Assembly: GCA_027064085.1 (NCBI GenBank)
Contig: JAMOQH010000105.1
Coordinates: forward strand, 1 to 40,646
Reading direction: 5' to 3'
DNA length: 40,646 nt
From: a bacterium
GTDB taxonomy: Bacteria; UBP6; JAFGXH01
Shown here: piece after piece, positions 20,301 through 31,977 of the stretch
Position numbering within the stretch: position 1 is the first letter of the stretch
Layout of the letters: each line of letters opens with the position of its first letter
Translations under genes and position numbers: made by a program
The notes under the pieces: generated by a model
What the model saw: the letters and a program-made list of their open reading frames with translations, nothing else
Databases searched by the model: none
Told to the model about the DNA's origin: nothing

Positions 20301-23300
20301 TTATTCACAAATTCCACCATAAACAACATAATCAGGATTTAAATCTTCAACTAAAATATCTTCCACCTTGCATTGAGTTGTCCCAACATCATTACATTGA
20401 GAGTTTTTAGTACAAGCATGAGAACACTTATTTGTATTCATATTGCAGATTTGAGAGCTACAATCACTATCTTTCGTACAAGTTTGATTTAGTGGGGTAT
20501 AACCTTGTTTTTTCTCGACACAAATATATTCAACACCAAATTTATTTGGATTATCTGCTTTTGGTTTTATATTTACTGGATTTGAAATACATGTTTTACC
20601 TGTATCACATAAAGAATCAGAATCATTTCCATTTATATTACAATTTGTAACATTAGTATTTTCATGCCTTGTAATACAAACCCCTCCATATACAGCTCTT
20701 GAATACTGAACTTCATCTCTTAGAAGTATCCTTTTACAATAATTATCTCCTTCACAATCACTTGAGCGTTCACAATAATTTCTACATCTACCAACTCTAT
20801 TATCTTCACATAAACCGTTACCACAAACACATAAGTCTGTATCGCAAATTTGGCTATCATTATTACATAATTCTCCTTCAGATGAATATGCTTTATTTGA
20901 TGTTGGTGTCAATACTCCACATACTCCTGATGCACTATCTCCTGATTTGCCTTCGGGTAAGTCTTTTAGTAGTGTAAATTTTGGCAAACACTGATATGAT
21001 TTTCCATTAACTAAGTTAGTTGGGCAATCATTTTTACCACCACATTCCGAAGGTGTTTCTTCAGTAGAATCCAAATACTTACATACTCCTAAATAATTTA
21101 AATCTATTAACTCTCCGTCTCTATTATTATGTATAATTTCACCTGACATCAAATTTTCATAACTACAATAAGCATTTATCCCACAATCAGAATCAGCTTT
21201 ACAAGTTGTTGTACAAAGAGTTTGGTTGCCACACATTCTGCCTTTACAATCAGAATTAAGCGAACATCTAGATCTTAAATTAGAACTTGCACTATTATCC
21301 TGAGGCCTGCAATAACTTAGTTTTGGGCCAGGTATTTCCTCTGGAAGCACTTGATATTTATAAGTAGTAGCAGAACACTTATAATCTTCCCCTAAAACAG
21401 AACACTCATTGTCATTTTCACATTGAACAAGACATATATTTAAAAATAAGTCCTTGTCCGTGTCTGGTAAATGATAAGCCAATGGAATACATTTTGTTCC
21501 TCCTGTACAAAAACTATCATCTTTACATTGCCCTGTACAAAAACCTTTTATACAATGTAGCCCTGTTGCACACTCTGAATCATTACAATTTTCATTACAT
21601 GGCTCACCTTGTTGCTTATTTTCTCTTTGACAATATCTAAAAACTCTTTGACAATAAGAAATATTAATATCTAATTTAGTACCTGCTTGAACTTCAAAAT
21701 CATAATAAGTTACCATTTCACAAAAATATCTTTCGTCTAAGCCATATCCAGTATAGGGGTCAGCACAATCTTCATCTATTGTACAACCATCACAACCTCC
21801 TACAGTTGCACACAATACCGGATTGTTTCTATCTTTTGTTAACTTTAAACCTAGACAATATGGGCCTTCTTCAACTTGATCATAAATACATATATTTGTT
21901 GGAAAATTACCAAAAGAATTAAATCCATCTTTACAATCTTCATTTACAACACAACAAGAACCAGAAACGCCTCCATTTTCCAAGCTTTTACTTTCCCCCT
22001 CTTGTAAGATTGGTCTGTTATCTGAACAAGTAAAAGAACATTCACCACTATTACACATTCCCCCATCATCACATCTCCCGTGCGGATATTGGGTGCTACA
22101 AGGTTTTTTAACACAATCACCACTTATACATTCTTCATCCCAAGAAGTACAAAACCCATTAGTAAACAAACTAGAACATGCTTGACTTGTTGGATCTGTA
22201 CAAGCATTATTATAGCAAACATAGCCTTCTGTTGAACACCAGCCATTAGGTTGCTGTTCCGAACATTCATTTAAACATATTCCTTGAATACATTTTTGAT
22301 TTGTACCTTCACAAGGACCATTGGGATTTTCTGCTCCACAAGGAATTTCTTCACAATTTCCATTATTACAATAAAAATATTGCTCACATGAGCCATTAGG
22401 AAATGTTTCTGAACACTGTTCAATACAATCTCCATCTAAGCAACCATAACCTAACTCAGAACATACACCAAAAGGATAATTATTACTACATTGAAATTTA
22501 CATTCACCCTCAATGCATATTTTATATTTATCCTGACATGCTCCCGTTAATTCAGTTGGGCTACATATAGGTTTACAGTAACCTTCAACACAAGTTTTAT
22601 TTTCATCTTCACAGTATCCATCTTTTACCGTTTCAGAGCATTTAAATTTACATTCACCCTCAACACACTTTGTTCCAATTTCTTCACAAATTCCAGTGGG
22701 TCTAATCTTGCTACATCTATAATTACAATTTCCCTCAAAACAAACTTGGTCTTCGTACTCACAAATTCCATTGGTTACAACAGAAGAGCAAACTCTTTTA
22801 CATACTCCTTGATCACAGAGCTTACCTACTTCACACACACCATAAAGATTATCTTGACCACATAACTCATACTCAAAATAACATTTATTAAATTTACATT
22901 TCTTAGTAGAATCACAAGCTCCATTTGGATATTGTTCACCACAAGAGAATTGACACTCATAATTTTCAGAATTACTATCAAGAGCACATGTTTTTCCTTT
23001 TGCACACACTCCATTTGTTACAATATTACTACACTTAGCACTATCTTTAATACAAGTACCATTAATACAACTATATTCATTTTGACAAGCACCGCTTGTA
23101 TGATTCTCGTCACATTTATATTCACAAAGACCTCTTTTAGTACAAATCATATTTTCATCAGCACATGTTCCATTTAAATTATTGAAACTACATCTTCCTT
23201 CAACACATTTAAAACCACCATTTTCAGTATCTTCAACACATGCCTCCGTTTTATCCTCACAAGGTGCAAGAATTGTTCCACACTTACTATCTTTAGGGAT

Positions 23301-23468
23301 ACAATTCCCCTTATAACAAGTATCACCATCCTTATCACACTGTCCAAAAGGTGTTTCTATTGTACATTTTATAGGTTCAACACTAATATCTCCATCATCT
23401 TTTTTACAAGATTGTAAAATAACTGATAAAATTATAAATAAATAAATAAAAATTTTATAATTATTCAC
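20301..23468 (-). CDS. Giant Cys-rich repeat lipoprotein B
   Basis: A 1055-residue lipoprotein with about 130 cysteines by my count. GTG 23468 is chosen because GGAGG lies 5 bases before it and it gives a normal signal peptide with lipobox VILQSC; a longer ATG start at 23507 is less likely. Residues about 35-500 are tandem disulfide modules of about 33 residues, typically C-x5-NG-x-C-x7-C-x2-G-x-C-x3-C. The second half has longer, less regular Cys modules (ADSDCG, KDSDCSSQIC) and ends VVYGGICE. It is paralogous to the gene before it throughout. The start overlaps that gene's stop by 8 bases. Surface adhesion or structural function is a guess; myxococcal-type disulfide repeats are similar. Confidence 0.85.
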   Translation of the reverse strand: MNNYKIFIYLFIILSVILQSCKKDDGDISVEPIKCTIETPFGQCDKDGDTCYKGNCIPKDSKCGTILAPCEDKTEACVEDTENGGFKCVEGRCSFNNLNGTCADENMICTKRGLCEYKCDENHTSGACQNEYSCINGTCIKDSAKCSNIVTNGVCAKGKTCALDSNSENYECQFSCGEQYPNGACDSTKKCKFNKCYFEYELCGQDNLYGVCEVGKLCDQGVCKRVCSSVVTNGICEYEDQVCFEGNCNYRCSKIRPTGICEEIGTKCVEGECKFKCSETVKDGYCEDENKTCVEGYCKPICSPTELTGACQDKYKICIEGECKFQCSNNYPFGVCSELGYGCLDGDCIEQCSETFPNGSCEQYFYCNNGNCEEIPCGAENPNGPCEGTNQKCIQGICLNECSEQQPNGWCSTEGYVCYNNACTDPTSQACSSLFTNGFCTSWDEECISGDCVKKPCSTQYPHGRCDDGGMCNSGECSFTCSDNRPILQEGESKSLENGGVSGSCCVVNEDCKDGFNSFGNFPTNICIYDQVEEGPYCLGLKLTKDRNNPVLCATVGGCDGCTIDEDCADPYTGYGLDERYFCEMVTYYDFEVQAGTKLDINISYCQRVFRYCQRENKQQGEPCNENCNDSECATGLHCIKGFCTGQCKDDSFCTGGTKCIPLAYHLPDTDKDLFLNICLVQCENDNECSVLGEDYKCSATTYKYQVLPEEIPGPKLSYCRPQDNSASSNLRSRCSLNSDCKGRMCGNQTLCTTTCKADSDCGINAYCSYENLMSGEIIHNNRDGELIDLNYLGVCKYLDSTEETPSECGGKNDCPTNLVNGKSYQCLPKFTLLKDLPEGKSGDSASGVCGVLTPTSNKAYSSEGELCNNDSQICDTDLCVCGNGLCEDNRVGRCRNYCERSSDCEGDNYCKRILLRDEVQYSRAVYGGVCITRHENTNVTNCNINGNDSDSLCDTGKTCISNPVNIKPKADNPNKFGVEYICVEKKQGYTPLNQTCTKDSDCSSQICNMNTNKCSHACTKNSQCNDVGTTQCKVEDILVEDLNPDYVVYGGICE

Positions 23469-26400
23469 AAACACCTCCGAGTATCCAATTAGACTGATTC
23501 TCATCATAAACTGCTGGATAATTAGTATTACATGTTTCTGTACCTACACCTATACATTGGGCATTGCTTGTACAAGCAGTTACACATTTATTACTTAGTT
23601 TTGAACAGATATTAGATTTACACTGAGTATCATTACTACAGTTAGCTCCAAAAATCCTTCCTGCAGGATTTTCAGATACACATAAATATTCAACAGAAAA
23701 TTTCCATGGAGCATTAACATCAGCATGATTATTTACTGGATTTAACACACAAGTTTCATTAGCTAATGCACATTTTTCAGTGGTACAATCACTTAATGTT
23801 GAAGCGGGAACAGGTACACAAACACCTCCAAACACTTCTTTATTGTTTCCTGTTTCTAAAGCACCATCTCTAAGCTGAATTCTTCTACATATTTGTTTTT
23901 GAGGTGAATTATTTATTTCTATCGTTGAACACTCTGAAGTTTCAGAGCATAATTCCCTACAAGTTCCCACTTCATTTGTTAAACTTAATGTATCATCAGT
24001 ACAAATAGAAGTATCACAGTATTGATTTGGAGAATGACAAGGCCCCCCTTCCAAAGACACAACACCTAAACCAATATCCCTAATACCACAAACACCTCTA
24101 ACAGTATCAGCATCATCAATATAAGCTAAGCATTTATAATTCCTATCTCTTCCCGAAACAGTAACTATTTCAGTAGGACAATCTGAAGAGGAAGTACAGA
24201 TATTTTTTCTAGTGATGCCTTGTGCAAGATACATACATACTCCAAGATAATTAATTGTTTTTGAATTTTTAATTAAAGCTTTGTTATAGTCACAGTATCC
24301 ATTTGTTCCACAATCATCATGTATTAAACAAGGTTCACTACATTTATGTTTAACACATAAGCTAGATGAACATTCTTCATTATTATCACAATATGTATTC
24401 TTAATTTTTCCAGATCTTTTATTACCACAAGTTGAAAACAGAGGAAGATTTTCATCATTTAAATCTTTTTTGTTATAATAATTATTACACTCATTTTGAG
24501 AAATCTTACAGTCTTTATTACTTGTACAAACATTTCTACAAACATTAGAATTTACTTCGTTTGTATACCCTGGATAATTTTTATCTTCTGAATATAACTC
24601 ACATACTAGCTGCTTCCCATTATTTACAGTAGGACATGTTGTATTTTGATTACATTCTTTAGTACAAATACCATCTATACAATGTAATCCATAAATACAA
24701 TCCGCATCACCACAGCTTTGGTCACAATATTGTCCCTCCATCTTATCTCTTAAAGCAGCACAATTTTCCTTTGCTCTTTCACAAAATGAAATATTTATAT
24801 TTTCAATTTTATCAAAATACGATGAACAATAATACTTTTGAGTACTACTTTCATTTGGTAAATATGGATAAACATCATTACAATCATCATCGTTTCCACA
24901 AATATTATCACCAATTTTATTACAGTATTTACCTCTTGAGTTCCCATCATCAACACATCTATTATTACTTGGAGTTGAGATATTTTCCCCTTGGCTTAAA
25001 CAATCCTGATTTGTGGTACAACAAGCAGTATAACTTGATTCATTTGGTAAATCTTCTTTATTTATACAACCATTAACTTCAGGAGTTTCTCCTTGTTTAC
25101 AAAGTATTCTTCTATAATCTTCACACATAGAAAAACATTCCCCTGTTATGGTATAACAAATTTCATTAGCATTTTCACACCTACCAGCAAAATCAATAGC
25201 ACAAGGCTTCAGAACACATTCATTCGCAATACATTCGAAATCATTATCACTACAATATGTACCATTCATTTCTTCACATGGTATTTGAATTTGTGTTTTG
25301 CAACTTCCTTCAAAGCAATGCTTATCATCATTACACCAACCATTAAGCTCATCTGCAGAACATGGTTTTACACAAGTTTCATTAACACATCTTTGTTCAA
25401 TACTATCAATTTCAGGACAATACCCATGAGGAAATTGTTGACTACAATCTCTTTTCTCACAAATACCATTATTACAGTAATATGTCTCATCTTCACAAAC
25501 TCCTGATTTATGATCAATATCACATGGATCTTCACATTGCTGATTTTTACACCATTGAACGCCCTCACAGTAGCCATCTGCTACAGTTTCTTCAGTTTCC
25601 TCTGCACCTTCAGGCAATTCGCATGCCTTTTTGCAAGTTCCAGCTTCACATCCACCATATTGACCAACATCATCAGTATCACAATGACCATTAGGATGGT
25701 TGGTACTACATTTGAAAACACAATTTCCATTAACACAATCTTGATCAATCCCAAGACAAACTCCTTGAGGAGCTTGAACAGAACACTTAGATTCACATTT
25801 ATAAGAGTTACTACCTTCTTTTTTTATACATACTTTAGAAGAAATGCATTCTCCATTAATATTATCATCACCACATTTGTTATCAGTATGCAAGCACTCA
25901 CCCTCAATACACTCTTCACCTTCATTTGGACAAGGCATTTTGCTATATTCGGGTTCTTCTTCTTCTGATTTATGACAAAGGGTAGTACATTTATAGTTTC
26001 CATCATCTTGTATTGTACATTTATTTTTACTATTACATTTTCCATTTGGATTATTAACAGAACAAATATTATTTTTGGGCAAACAAACTTCATCAAAACA
26101 TATATCGTTTTTATCAGTACAACCTCCAGTAGGATACTCTGAAGAGCAAGGCTTCTTACAATAACCATGAAAACAAGATTCCCCCTCAGTTGAGCAATAA
26201 CCATTTAAATTTTTTATTGTACATCTACCTTCAACACATTTATATTCTCTTGTTGCTTCATCTCTTTGGCATTCATCTCCACTATCACAAAAAGCATCAA
26301 GTGCGCCACCACATTTTAGAGTTTTGTCAATACAACTTCCTTTATAACATCTTTCGTTCTGATTCTCACAAGGGGCAAATTGATTAGTTTTAGAACAATA

Positions 26401-26481
26401 TGTTGGTTTAAAGGCATCATCTTCTCTTTTGCAAGAAATGATTAAAAATGATATTGAAACTAATAAAAAAAAATATTTCAT
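23461..26481 (-). CDS. Giant Cys-rich repeat lipoprotein A
   Basis: A 1006-residue paralogue of lipoprotein B. ATG 26481 follows AGGAG and starts a signal peptide with lipobox LIISC; an upstream in-frame start at 26544 would place 21 odd residues before it. The N-terminal block matches B module by module (CYKGSC, YKCVEGRCTIKNLNGYC). Repeats of the NG-x-C type follow to about residue 480, then longer Cys modules, ending WILGGVCE. The codons for the last residues (GGAGGTGTTTGTGAATAA) also contain the ribosome site and GTG start of gene B. It has its own promoter. Localisation is probably the outer membrane or cell surface. Confidence 0.85.
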   Translation of the reverse strand: MKYFFLLVSISFLIISCKREDDAFKPTYCSKTNQFAPCENQNERCYKGSCIDKTLKCGGALDAFCDSGDECQRDEATREYKCVEGRCTIKNLNGYCSTEGESCFHGYCKKPCSSEYPTGGCTDKNDICFDEVCLPKNNICSVNNPNGKCNSKNKCTIQDDGNYKCTTLCHKSEEEEPEYSKMPCPNEGEECIEGECLHTDNKCGDDNINGECISSKVCIKKEGSNSYKCESKCSVQAPQGVCLGIDQDCVNGNCVFKCSTNHPNGHCDTDDVGQYGGCEAGTCKKACELPEGAEETEETVADGYCEGVQWCKNQQCEDPCDIDHKSGVCEDETYYCNNGICEKRDCSQQFPHGYCPEIDSIEQRCVNETCVKPCSADELNGWCNDDKHCFEGSCKTQIQIPCEEMNGTYCSDNDFECIANECVLKPCAIDFAGRCENANEICYTITGECFSMCEDYRRILCKQGETPEVNGCINKEDLPNESSYTACCTTNQDCLSQGENISTPSNNRCVDDGNSRGKYCNKIGDNICGNDDDCNDVYPYLPNESSTQKYYCSSYFDKIENINISFCERAKENCAALRDKMEGQYCDQSCGDADCIYGLHCIDGICTKECNQNTTCPTVNNGKQLVCELYSEDKNYPGYTNEVNSNVCRNVCTSNKDCKISQNECNNYYNKKDLNDENLPLFSTCGNKRSGKIKNTYCDNNEECSSSLCVKHKCSEPCLIHDDCGTNGYCDYNKALIKNSKTINYLGVCMYLAQGITRKNICTSSSDCPTEIVTVSGRDRNYKCLAYIDDADTVRGVCGIRDIGLGVVSLEGGPCHSPNQYCDTSICTDDTLSLTNEVGTCRELCSETSECSTIEINNSPQKQICRRIQLRDGALETGNNKEVFGGVCVPVPASTLSDCTTEKCALANETCVLNPVNNHADVNAPWKFSVEYLCVSENPAGRIFGANCSNDTQCKSNICSKLSNKCVTACTSNAQCIGVGTETCNTNYPAVYDENQSNWILGGVCE

Positions 26482-26515
26482 AGATACTCCTTTTAAGTAA
26501 ACACTACTATTTTTG

Positions 26516-26544
26516 ATTATATAGTATATAGGATAAAAAATCAA
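26516..26544 (-). promoter_or_regulatory. Promoter of the Cys-rich lipoprotein/nadC unit
   Basis: On the minus strand TTGATT (26544-26539) and TATAAT (26521-26516) are spaced by 17 bases, 34 bases before ATG 26481. Confidence 0.55.
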
Positions 26545-26929: not shown

Positions 26930-26959
26930 TTGACAGAATTTTTTATTTTATAGTATACT
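26930..26959 (+). promoter_or_regulatory. Promoter of the CheY/cNMP/TPR operon
   Basis: TTGACA (26930-26935) and TATACT (26954-26959) are spaced by 18 bases. GGAGG at 26977-26981 precedes the TTG start at 26987. Confidence 0.6.
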
Positions 26960-26986: not shown

Positions 26987-27373
26987 TTGGCAATAGATTA
27001 TAATATGAAAATTCTTATAGTTGATGATTTTTCAACAATGAGAAGGATTGAAAAAAATATATTAAAACATATTGGTTATACAAATATTGATGAAGCTGGA
27101 GATGGATCTGAGGCATTACAAAAGTTAAGAGCTAAAAAATATGATTTTATTATTTCTGACTGGAACATGCCCATAATGGAAGGAATTGAATTATTAAGGG
27201 CAGTAAGAGCAGATGAATCATTAAAGCACTTACCATTTTTAATGGTTACTGCAGAAGCTGAAAAGGCATCTGTTCTATTAGCTATTAAAGAAGGTGTTAG
27301 TAACTACATTGTTAAACCTTTTACCGAGGATGTTATTAAAGCTAAAATTGAACAAATTTTTAATAAAAAATAA
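26987..27373 (+). CDS. CheY-like response regulator
   Basis: A 128-residue stand-alone receiver domain. TTG 26987 is preferred to ATG 26975 because GGAGG lies 5 bases before it and the product then begins MAIDYNMKILIVDDFSTMRR, the usual start for this group. The acidic pair DD (residues about 11-12), phosphoacceptor Asp in FIISDWNMPIMEG (about 55), the Thr/Ala of MVTAEAE and the Lys of NYIVKPF are all present, so phosphorylation should work. It is close to chemotaxis CheY in sequence. No CheA, kinase or flagellar gene is nearby. It heads a four-gene operon with a cNMP-domain protein 11 bases downstream. Confidence 0.93.
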   Translation: MAIDYNMKILIVDDFSTMRRIEKNILKHIGYTNIDEAGDGSEALQKLRAKKYDFIISDWNMPIMEGIELLRAVRADESLKHLPFLMVTAEAEKASVLLAIKEGVSNYIVKPFTEDVIKAKIEQIFNKK

Positions 27374-27384
27374 CATGATGAAAT

Positions 27385-28770
27385 ATGATGGATAAAAAAA
27401 ATAGATTAAAAAACAAAGCAAATAGCTACTTTGACCGAGCTAACTACAAAAAGGCTATAGCCGTTTTTGAAGAAATTTATGCTCTTGATGAATATAATGA
27501 AAAAATAATGTTATTAAGAGCAGCTAGATGCTATGAATTAATAAAAGATAAAAGGAAGGCAATACTTATTTATATTAGAGTTGCAAAAGAATATGCTGAA
27601 TCGGGTTTTTTATTAAAAGCTATTGCATCTTTAAAAAATGTTTTGGAACTAGAACCTAATCATATTGAAACTCAAGAGTTAATTGCTGATTTATATGCTA
27701 AAAACGGTAAGATTTATGAAAAGAAGAAGCCAAAAGTAAAATCATTTATAAAAAACGATACTTCCTTTAAGACCAAAAAAGCAAAAATAATAGAAGAAGA
27801 TATTACGGATGCGGAAGATCTTATAATAGAGGGAGATTTTATCGCTAAAGAAGATGATTTTTCTGAAGAAGAAATTTTTATAAATCAAATAACAGAACCC
27901 ATTCCTCCAGTTATGCAAGATGTTATTGATGCATCAACCCTATTAAAGCCTTTACCGGAAATACCTTTATTTTCAAAATTAGATAAAGAAGCTTTTATTC
28001 ATTTAATGAATAAAATAGAATTAAAAAAATATAGAAAGGAAAATTTAATTATTAAGGAAGGAGATCATGCCGATGCTCTTTACATAATACTTTCTGGAGA
28101 AGTCAAGATACTTAAAGAAATTGACGAGAATTCAAATATTGAAATAGCAAGATTATCAGAAGGATCATTTTTTGGTGAAATGGCACTATTGGGAAATTCT
28201 CAAAGAATGGCTTCTGTTGAGGCCGCAACAGAACTTGAACTTTTTGTTATATCTAAAGAGATGCTTGATGAAATAATGAATAAGTATTCTTCAATTAGAG
28301 AAACATTATTTAAATTTTATCGTAATAGGTTACTTTATAATATTATTAATTTTTCTCCAATGTTTCAAAAAATTGAAAAAGAAAAAAGATTAACATTAAT
28401 AAAGAAGTTTCGCTCTAAAAGACTATTTGCAAATCAGATAATAATTGAACAAAATGGAGAAATACCAGGTTTATTTCTTGTTTTAGAAGGAAATATCAAG
28501 GTATATCGTCTTTTAGAGAATGCTAACCGACAAGATATAATAACAGTATCTAGGGGTGCAATTCTTGGAGAGATGTCTTTACTAACAGGGAGTAAACCAA
28601 TGGCATATTGTTCTACTTTAGTAAAAACTTGGGTGCTAAGGTTACCAACAGAAGATTTTGATTTTTTAAGAACAGAGTATCCTGAGGTTATAGATTATCT
28701 AAAAAATCTTAAAGAAGATAGAGAGTATGAATTAGACTTATTAGGTAAACTTAATATTGGGATTTACTAG
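27385..28770 (+). CDS. TPR protein with two cyclic-nucleotide-binding domains
   Basis: A 461-residue cytoplasmic protein. Residues about 1-115 are TPR-like helices (YFDRANYKKAIAVFEEIYALDE). An acidic linker follows, then cNMP-binding domain 1 (about 195-310) with IIKEGDHADALYIILSGEVKI and the phosphate-binding loop FFGEMALLGNSQRMASV including its Arg. Domain 2 (about 320-440, IIEQNGEIPGLFLVLEGNIKV) has ILGEMSLLTGSKPMAYCS, lacking that Arg. There is no DNA-binding helix-turn-helix, so it is not a CRP-type regulator. The start is the first of two adjacent ATGs; the ribosome site is weak. One working and one degenerate cNMP site would suit an allosteric scaffold. Its partners are probably the flanking genes. 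Confidence 0.88.
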   Translation: MMDKKNRLKNKANSYFDRANYKKAIAVFEEIYALDEYNEKIMLLRAARCYELIKDKRKAILIYIRVAKEYAESGFLLKAIASLKNVLELEPNHIETQELIADLYAKNGKIYEKKKPKVKSFIKNDTSFKTKKAKIIEEDITDAEDLIIEGDFIAKEDDFSEEEIFINQITEPIPPVMQDVIDASTLLKPLPEIPLFSKLDKEAFIHLMNKIELKKYRKENLIIKEGDHADALYIILSGEVKILKEIDENSNIEIARLSEGSFFGEMALLGNSQRMASVEAATELELFVISKEMLDEIMNKYSSIRETLFKFYRNRLLYNIINFSPMFQKIEKEKRLTLIKKFRSKRLFANQIIIEQNGEIPGLFLVLEGNIKVYRLLENANRQDIITVSRGAILGEMSLLTGSKPMAYCSTLVKTWVLRLPTEDFDFLRTEYPEVIDYLKNLKEDREYELDLLGKLNIGIY

Positions 28771-28771
28771 C

Positions 28772-30322
28772 GTGATAAAAATTATTTTATTTATCTTACT
28801 TATATTGCTTTCATCTTGTAATGATAATACTGAACAAAAAATAAAAGATCATCTTAATTATTATTTAATTGGAGTTAGCCAATATAAAGCAAGAGACTTT
28901 AATAATGCAATTACTTCCTTTAAAGAAGATTATCGTAGAACCAAAAACATTGAGAGTTTATTTAAATTGGCTGAAATATCAAGCTCAACTGGAGACCCTC
29001 ATAATGCTGAAGAATATCTAAAGAAAATTATTATTAAAAAACCTGGCAACAATAGAGCTTTATTTCAATTAGCTTTTTTATATAAAAAAATGGGAAGATA
29101 TAATAAATCCGTTAAATATTTCGCTAAACTTCTAGACAATAAAGACTACCTAGATGAATCTTATTATCATATTATAGATATTTATATTTATTCTATGGAA
29201 ATTAAAGAAGCAATAAGTCTTTTTGAATCGGGGATAAATAAAATAAAAAAGAAATATAAAATTGAATATCTTTTTGTTAATTATTTCTATGATAAGGATA
29301 AGGATAAATATAAAAAATATTTTAACGACATATTAAATAACGCAAAAGATTATAAAGTATTAAATAAACTTGTAGATTTCTTTTTTATAAAAGAAGATAT
29401 TAACACAGCTTATATCATACTTAAAAAAATGGAAAAATATTATCCCAAAGATGCAGAAACATTAACAACTATTGGTCAGATACACTTAAGAAATGGCAAA
29501 TTTTCAGAAGCTAAAAAATATTTTAAAAAAGCCGAAAAATCTAATAGAAAAAGCCTTTTAAATAAGATAAACTTAGCAACTTCTGAATTTTATGATAATA
29601 ATTTAGATAAAGCTGAAAATTATTTAAAAGAAGCAATCGGAATTAAAAGAGATTCAATAGAGTCACTTTTATTAATTGGCTTTATATACTACCTTAAAGG
29701 AGATATTGATAAATCTAGTAAAATTATAGAAACAGTAAAGAAAAATACTTTTGAAACACAAATTGATTCATTTAAAAAAAGTAATCAATTGATTGAATTT
29801 TATCTTATAAATATAGAATTAGATAAAGATAATAAATTTCCAGACAAACATAAAATCATTAATTTTGTTACAGGAAAAAATCTTAAACTAATGGCACTTA
29901 AGGCCAAAATCCTTAATGAAATGGGATTATATAAAGAAGTTGGAGCTTTAGTTTTACCCAAAAACATTAAAAACGATTCATTAATAAAAGAAATACTTAT
30001 TGCAAATATTTTTTTGAAAAATGAAAAACAAGCATACCTATTATTGAATAAGCTTCAAAAAAATAAAGATATTTATAAAATATGGCTAGATTATTCCTTT
30101 AAGAAAAAATGTGATAATTTGGATAAGAAATATGATAAAAACAAGAAAAATAATATTTTTATTGATATTTATACTAATTGCCTAATGAAACAGAAAAAAT
30201 TTAAATTGTCTAAAAAAATAATAACTAGCTTTATCAAAGAGAATGACTTATCTAAAACAACTATTGATTATTTAAAAAAGAAGATAATCGTAATAAACTA
30301 TAATTTAATACAGCAACAGTGA
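28772..30322 (+). CDS. TPR-repeat lipoprotein
   Basis: A 516-residue lipoprotein. GTG 28772 gives a compact signal peptide with lipobox LLSSC and starts one base after the previous stop; TTG 28757 is an alternative. Residues about 20-330 hold TPR units (YLIGVSQYKARDFNNAITSF, RALFQLAFLYKKMGRYNKSV, TTIGQIHLRNGKFSEAKKYF). The rest is helical and Lys-rich without clear repeats. Absence of Asp after the lipid Cys (it is Asn) favours outer-membrane sorting under the usual rule. It overlaps the next gene by 4 bases. It resembles TPR lipoproteins of assembly machines such as pilus or secretion systems, but no such machine is adjacent. Confidence 0.8.
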   Translation: MIKIILFILLILLSSCNDNTEQKIKDHLNYYLIGVSQYKARDFNNAITSFKEDYRRTKNIESLFKLAEISSSTGDPHNAEEYLKKIIIKKPGNNRALFQLAFLYKKMGRYNKSVKYFAKLLDNKDYLDESYYHIIDIYIYSMEIKEAISLFESGINKIKKKYKIEYLFVNYFYDKDKDKYKKYFNDILNNAKDYKVLNKLVDFFFIKEDINTAYIILKKMEKYYPKDAETLTTIGQIHLRNGKFSEAKKYFKKAEKSNRKSLLNKINLATSEFYDNNLDKAENYLKEAIGIKRDSIESLLLIGFIYYLKGDIDKSSKIIETVKKNTFETQIDSFKKSNQLIEFYLINIELDKDNKFPDKHKIINFVTGKNLKLMALKAKILNEMGLYKEVGALVLPKNIKNDSLIKEILIANIFLKNEKQAYLLLNKLQKNKDIYKIWLDYSFKKKCDNLDKKYDKNKKNNIFIDIYTNCLMKQKKFKLSKKIITSFIKENDLSKTTIDYLKKKIIVINYNLIQQQ

Positions 30323-31977
30323 AACAATACATAAATATACTTTTCTATAATATAATCTTCGCTATTTTTATAACAATTTTAGAAACGATTATTCTTAATT
30401 CCAATAATGGTAAGTTTGAAGTTGTTAATTCAATTTTTATTTTTATAAACTTTTATATATTATTAATTATTATCTCCTTGATTGTATTTTTTATTAATTT
30501 AATATTAAAATATTTATTTTTAAAGATAGATATTCCTTTTAATTCTTATAAAGAACTATCTAAAATAATCATAAGAATCATAACAATTACCTTATTGTTA
30601 TTTTTATCTTTAATAATTCTATTTTTTACTTACAAAAGCTATACAATTTATTCTATATTATATTACTCTCTAATTCTTTATTTGATTATTTATTACATAG
30701 TTTTTATTGATAAACTAGTCTTATTGAAATTAGAAAAAATTAAAATCTCTCAAAAAGTAAGTTATAGTCTTATACTTTTATTTTTATTATCTATTGTAAT
30801 TTTTTTTAGTATTATAACAATAAAAGGATACCTATATAATATAAATTATATTATTGAAATCTTTTATATACTACTGTTAATGGTAGTATTATCTTTTAAG
30901 CACTTCAATAAAGCTAACTTATTACATTTTAAAATAATAATAATAATAATAATAAGCACATTTTTCATTAATTCATTTAAATTATTTGAAACTAAATTTA
31001 TTGACTTAAAAAAAATTTCATCAACTCTAGAAAATAATAATTTATTATCTGATAAAATTACAAACATTATACTAAAAAACTTTTTTGATAATGATAATGA
31101 TGGCTTTTATAAATTTTTATCATATGGTGATTGTGATGATAATAATGCTAATATTAACCCCTTTGCTGATGATATCCCTAACAACAGTATTGATGAAAAT
31201 TGCAATGGATTCGATGAAAGAGAACTGTATGTTTTTAAAGAAAATTCTCATAAAAGATATAGAGATATCAAATTAAACTACATTCCAAAGATTTTAGTTA
31301 TATTTATACAAAATTTATCCTCTAAATCAATTAAAAATCTAAATAAATTAATTGCTAAAGATAATCATTTTTTAATTTACAAAAACATGATATTGGAAAC
31401 ACCAAATCGCGACTCTAATATTAATAATTTTTTATCTGTAAAACTTAAAGCAAAAAACAACACTCTTTTATGTGATACAATTATAGTAGAATCTAACACT
31501 CACAAACTCAAAAAGATTATAAAAACAAGTGATGCAACTGATATTTTTATTATTCCTATTTCATTAAATGCTGTTGGAAAGTATGGCTATACAAAATCCA
31601 ATAATTCTCTATTAGAGGATCAAGTAAACTCTCTTGCAATTATTTATTCTAAAAAAAGAACTTATAGTAAAAAATATATTAAAAGATATATTTCATTAAT
31701 GGATATATCTTATACTATCTCTCAAATCCTTAAAAAGAAGGTAAAAAATGAATATTTTTTATCTTTAATTGATGAAATCTTATTTGATTCTTATGAAATA
31801 AATAAAAACAGTACAATAAATTTATACCATGAAAATGAATTCAAAAAAATTATAGAAGTTTCAAAAATCAAAAATAATGTAAAATGTATTAAAAACTTAA
31901 AAACGAAAAAAACTTTTTGCTTAAATCTAAAAAATAATACTAAATTAAATAAAAAGATGAACTTTTTAATTCCCTAG
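30319..31977 (+). CDS. Polytopic membrane protein with MopE-type motif and degenerate sulfatase-like domain
   Basis: A 552-residue protein starting at GTG that overlaps the previous stop (GTGA). Residues about 1-225 form six to eight membrane helices. Residues about 253-300 are a MopE-type metal-binding motif (DNDNDGFYKF...GDCDDNNANINPF...DENCNGFDE). The rest resembles the alkaline-phosphatase/sulfatase fold: KILVIFIQNLSSKSIKNLNK where active enzymes have a metal-binding Asp, and the late helix YISLMDISYTISQIL like the vsLvDiaPTLL end of sulfatases. The nucleophile Ser/Cys/Thr and metal ligands are not recognisable, so it is probably inactive. The layout recalls LtaS-type membrane sulfatases. 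Assignment of this part is inference; the end overlaps the convergent Kelch gene by 12 bases. Confidence 0.65.
   Translation: MKQYINILFYNIIFAIFITILETIILNSNNGKFEVVNSIFIFINFYILLIIISLIVFFINLILKYLFLKIDIPFNSYKELSKIIIRIITITLLLFLSLIILFFTYKSYTIYSILYYSLILYLIIYYIVFIDKLVLLKLEKIKISQKVSYSLILLFLLSIVIFFSIITIKGYLYNINYIIEIFYILLLMVVLSFKHFNKANLLHFKIIIIIIISTFFINSFKLFETKFIDLKKISSTLENNNLLSDKITNIILKNFFDNDNDGFYKFLSYGDCDDNNANINPFADDIPNNSIDENCNGFDERELYVFKENSHKRYRDIKLNYIPKILVIFIQNLSSKSIKNLNKLIAKDNHFLIYKNMILETPNRDSNINNFLSVKLKAKNNTLLCDTIIVESNTHKLKKIIKTSDATDIFIIPISLNAVGKYGYTKSNNSLLEDQVNSLAIIYSKKRTYSKKYIKRYISLMDISYTISQILKKKVKNEYFLSLIDEILFDSYEINKNSTINLYHENEFKKIIEVSKIKNNVKCIKNLKTKKTFCLNLKNNTKLNKKMNFLIP

Follow-up and report, generated by a model that had tools for sequence, protein, structure and literature searches.

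The four tightly packed genes at positions 26,987 to 31,977 of the window (the whole 40,646-nucleotide stretch analysed, contig JAMOQH010000105.1, our C105) are probably two adjoining gene pairs, each conserved in its own right, rather than one four-part system. The first pair would consist of a flagellar CheY and a soluble adaptor with tetratricopeptide repeats (TPRs) and two cyclic-nucleotide-binding domains (CNBDs), and the second would be an envelope pair, in which a TPR lipoprotein is joined by an inner-membrane protein. We favor this reading because both pairs are kept in all three family genomes and the quartet in two of the three (our genome and relative G001; only three genomes were available), and because the DNA upstream of the TPR lipoprotein gene is alike in relatives G001 and G002. 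Two points run counter to it: the quartet occurs intact in two genera despite scrambled flanks, which favors some common role or regulation of all four genes, and quartet carriers are few in a sample of three genomes from one family.

Gene layout and linkage in relatives

The source genome comprises 3.65 Mb in 195 contigs, with a GC content of 0.27. A preliminary description of the window had reported four packed genes, the first three separated by 11 bases and 1 base and the last two overlapping by 4 bases, and we confirmed four open reading frames on the + strand with exactly this spacing: cheY (gene 1; 26,987 to 27,373), the TPR-CNBD-CNBD gene (gene 2; 27,385 to 28,770), the TPR lipoprotein gene (gene 3; 28,772 to 30,322) and the membrane-MopE gene (gene 4; 30,319 to 31,977). 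They encode proteins of 128, 461, 516 and 552 amino acids, respectively, and genes 3 and 4 start with GTG. The TTG at 26,987 is best read as the start of cheY, since it is preceded by GGAGG and aligns with the ATG starts in G001 and G002. The domains ascribed to the first three proteins (a receiver, a double cNMP protein without a DNA-binding domain and a TPR lipoprotein) were likewise borne out by Pfam, by the absence of a helix-turn-helix (HTH) and by the lipobox LSSC. The GC content is 0.28 in genes 1 and 2, 0.22 in gene 3 and 0.19 in gene 4, and GC3 is ~0.16 in all four. The last 12 bases of the MopE gene (31,966 to 31,977) are shared with the end of a convergent gene for a Kelch lipoprotein, and two adjoining cysteine-rich lipoproteins of ~1,000 residues each, which contain short repeats and match no Pfam family, are encoded on the − strand at 20,301 to 26,544.

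The preliminary description had proposed a search for this gene order in other genomes. Linkage was indeed found in G001, which belongs to another genus and carries cheY, CNBD, TPR and MopE genes in the same order, spaced by 84, 191, and 9 bases, downstream of a mannose-1-phosphate guanylyltransferase-like gene (named by eye). In G002, however, the set is broken after gene 2: one locus has cheY and the CNBD gene with an unrelated convergent gene downstream of them, and the TPR-MopE pair is on another contig. A few kb from this unlinked pair are TolQ/TolR-like and large TPR genes (L031:193-10665, on G002:C218) which, by eye, resemble gliding-machinery clusters. On the G001 contig, none of the genes that flank the quartet in the window is found in synteny (a single weak match, 27% over 92 residues, lies elsewhere), and around fliLMN only the operon itself is common to our genome and G001. 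The kept order of the quartet is therefore not background synteny, and because it recurs in G001 without common flanking genes, the packing is more than chance. Outside the family, the four-gene set was not found by a profile search over 386 genomes, in ten neighbourhoods, or by a gene 4 homologue search; a contig search with the CNBD protein alone gave no match, and one with its alignment returned only the two known relatives.

A promoter-like site, TTGACA-N18-TATACT, stands before cheY (26,930 to 26,959, + strand) with 11 of 12 consensus matches, and sites with 12 of 12 occupy the same place in G001 and G002. Among mononucleotide shuffles of the 80-base upstream region, 0.75% score as high in our genome; in the relatives, 0 of 2000 do. 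Scanned as a whole for promoters and terminators, the window gave results at noise level, the cheY site being the only one repeated in the relatives. In our genome, both pairs probably share this promoter. In the genus of G001 and G002, the second pair probably has a leader of its own, since the DNA 5′ of the unlinked TPR gene in G002 resembles the 191-base gap of G001 (score 54, reached by 0 of 300 shuffles, the best of which scored 45).

The TPR-CNBD-CNBD protein

Gene 2 contains two Pfam cNMP_binding stretches (3.2e-39), preceded by an N-terminal TPR domain (TPR_19, 1.6e-6) that had been overlooked in the preliminary description. Pfam detected no HTH in the protein, which thus lacks the CNBD-then-HTH arrangement of CRP/FNR proteins, and we ruled out a CRP-type regulator on that ground. 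A three-row profile run against 386 genomes picked up homologues well beyond the phylum; of these, the ones in G071 (3.4e-81, positions 2-453) and G314 (8.5e-80, positions 3-451) matched over their full length. As judged by these alignments, gene 2 belongs to a widespread family, named here TPR-CNBD-CNBD and defined by N-terminal TPRs plus two CNBDs over the full length. The phosphate-binding cassette of CNBD1 (GE...R.A) is intact in all 13 aligned proteins, whereas the cassette arginine of CNBD2 is absent from 10 of the 12 proteins having that domain, gene 2 included. Gene 2 would consequently be expected to bind a cyclic nucleotide at a single site, in CNBD1, and a ligand source exists, given that our genome has four class III cyclase matches. 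Several members in the 13-protein alignment (loci L103-L112) end in a short G-[ILM]-[VYC] tail.

Tandem CNBDs without an HTH are also found in the regulatory parts of PKA and PKG, which were the best PDB matches, and tandem CNBDs in the bacteriocin-transport-associated family TIGR03896 (match 1.3e-25, although at 90.5 bits under the cut-off of 161). In contrast to these proteins, gene 2 has N-terminal TPRs, no kinase, and a CNBD2 without the cassette arginine. An AlphaFold model (mean pLDDT 43.6) was confident in the TPR part only.

In ten neighbourhoods of gene 2 homologues outside the phylum, we found neither a stand-alone CheY nor any gene homologous to gene 3 or gene 4. Among genomes with a homologue, FliM/FliN matches were present in G118, G076, and G055, and none were detected in G071, G314, G176, and G067. 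The general role of the family is therefore not tied to flagella, and adjacency to cheY is a feature of the present lineage. One could accordingly suppose that cheY and the CNBD gene are plain neighbours under one promoter, with no common function; the unequal identity of the two proteins among the relatives (84-87% for CheY vs 51% for the CNBD protein) fits this idea as well. Nevertheless, the two genes adjoin in all three family genomes, in two genera and between differing flanks, and we consider mere neighbourhood unlikely. Adjacency is also the basis on which we infer that gene 2 may act on chemotaxis, and a cAMP-tuned chemotaxis pair made of genes 1 and 2 is plausible.

The probable envelope pair

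Genes 3 and 4 were found only in the present family, and adjoin in all three of its genomes. The TPRs of gene 3 (Pfam 1.9e-21) and its lipobox recall TPR lipoproteins of the GltE/Tgl/PilW type (NCBIfam GltE, 4.2e-13), but gene 3 falls far under every curated cut-off (49 vs 225 bits for GltE).

Gene 4 had been called a polytopic MopE/sulfatase-like protein. Its seven hydrophobic segments, as judged by hydropathy, and a MopE motif slightly below the Pfam cut-off (1.1e-5) agree with the first part of that description; as to the second, Pfam gave no sulfatase match, but the domain scored 28.4 (probability 51%) against a profile of 15 sulfatases, compared with at most 11.2 in 30 column shuffles. 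Where sulfatases have the motifs VDT and SDHG, gene 4 has FIQN and SLNAVG; both motifs are lost in the two relatives too, so that none of the three family proteins carries the metal-site motifs of an active sulfatase (PF00884). Because the profile score exceeds the shuffles and the metal-site motifs are lost, “pseudo-sulfatase” appears to be a fair description, with moderate support. The AlphaFold model (mean pLDDT 38) was too poor for fold comparison.

The only full-length homologues of gene 4 are those of the two family relatives, and the remaining matches center on the MopE motif. Some of these are larger TM-MopE-sulfatase proteins with a recognizable sulfatase domain, two of them, in G231 (L156), with intact motifs. 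Such proteins share with gene 4 a membrane part, a MopE motif and a sulfatase-like domain in the same order, yet those of G231 keep VDT and SDHGEE. Between their genes lie two type IV pilin-like genes and a gene for a polytopic TPR protein (L156:3942-11606), an arrangement that could be a pilin-modification locus. We rejected the G231 TPR/TM-MopE-sulfatase pair as a counterpart of genes 3 and 4, its TPR protein being polytopic and not a gene 3 homologue. We suggest that the outer part of the inner-membrane protein consists of the MopE motif and a sulfatase-like domain without catalytic activity and, from the lost motifs and the location, that genes 3 and 4 may act together as a scaffold or substrate holder.

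The preliminary description had gone further, and proposed that all four genes form one new signalling system. In such a relay, phosphorylation and cNMP inputs would be merged by CheY and the CNBD protein and handed on to the envelope pair. The common order in two genera without common flanks, and the single base that separates gene 2 from gene 3 in our genome, are what one would expect of it. However, G002 has two separate loci, the 191-base gap in G001 falls between the pairs, the quartet was confined to the family, and the four proteins diverge very unequally (84, 51, 35, and 33% identity for genes 1 to 4). With gene 1 very probably a flagellar CheY, and the gene 2 family occurring elsewhere without CheY and FliM/FliN, we regard the integrated relay as improbable and did not retain it. 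About equally doubtful is an arrangement in which CheY or the flagellar switch is the direct target of the cyclic-nucleotide-gated adaptor, and genes 3 and 4 are the envelope side of the same apparatus.

CheY and the proposed pathway

Gene 1 consists of one receiver domain only (Pfam Response_reg, 4.8e-28). It is 54% identical to E. coli CheY (the comparison sequence was entered by hand), retains DD/D58/T88/K110/Y107, and has CheYs as its best solved-structure matches. Its length, full set of catalytic residues and switch-position tyrosine are those of the flagellar CheYs of E. coli and Vibrio. Against NCBIfam PRK10610, an enterobacterial-type model narrower than the CheY family, it scored 164.6 bits, under the cut-off of 189. 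In a survey of 29 genomes (our own, 27 others of the phylum, and one outside), orthologues were found in three, all of one family; the next-best matches were 31-39% identical and mostly within larger proteins. FliM/FliN and flagellin occur in exactly the same three genomes, a co-occurrence that counts as one event, as the three form one family.

Our genome encodes FliM, FliN, FliL and flagellin, and the N-terminus of its FliM, MEEILSQDEISALLNA, resembles LSQAEIDALL, the CheY-binding segment of E. coli FliM. Divergence within the family is slow and equal for CheY (84-87% identity), FliM (80%) and FliN (85-87%). The che operon on contig C144 (L070:3984-9586) encodes CheW, CheB, CheR and a CheA whose C-terminal part is a receiver domain, and no separate CheY. 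On the strength of the E. coli identity and kept residues, the co-occurrence, the FliM N-terminus, the matched divergence and this operon, gene 1 is very probably the flagellar CheY. It differs from that of E. coli and Vibrio in lying apart from the cheA-cheW-cheB-cheR operon and next to a CNBD gene. That it might instead be the non-flagellar output of another chemosensory pathway, as the CheA-receiver hybrid could suggest, is highly improbable, given that its closest solved relatives are flagellar CheYs with the key residues kept, that FliM carries the CheY-binding motif, and that CheY, FliM/FliN and flagellin share the same genomes.

In the two-pair reading, CheA, encoded elsewhere, would phosphorylate CheY at Asp58, and CheY-P would bind the FliM N-terminus and switch rotation; homology strongly supports both steps. 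The adaptor would bind its ligand in CNBD1 and, through its TPR domain, relay the ligand state to another component, perhaps the chemotaxis apparatus or the motor. None of this is new in kind; as far as our tools reach, the pairing of cheY with a CNBD gene and that of a TPR lipoprotein with a pseudo-sulfatase are undescribed variants built from known parts, and our search of the literature on a link between CheY and CNBD proteins, on MopE-sulfatases and on myxobacterial proteins that bind cyclic nucleotides found nothing usable. What emerges is that, in this thinly sampled lineage, the probable flagellar CheY is accompanied by a cyclic-nucleotide-binding adaptor. The family of this adaptor reaches distant bacteria, and in most members one ligand site is intact and the other worn out. 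A protein of the TM-MopE-sulfatase type, turned probable pseudoenzyme, is in its turn kept with a TPR lipoprotein. If the link between CheY and the adaptor is functional, a cyclic nucleotide would be a direct input to flagellar steering.
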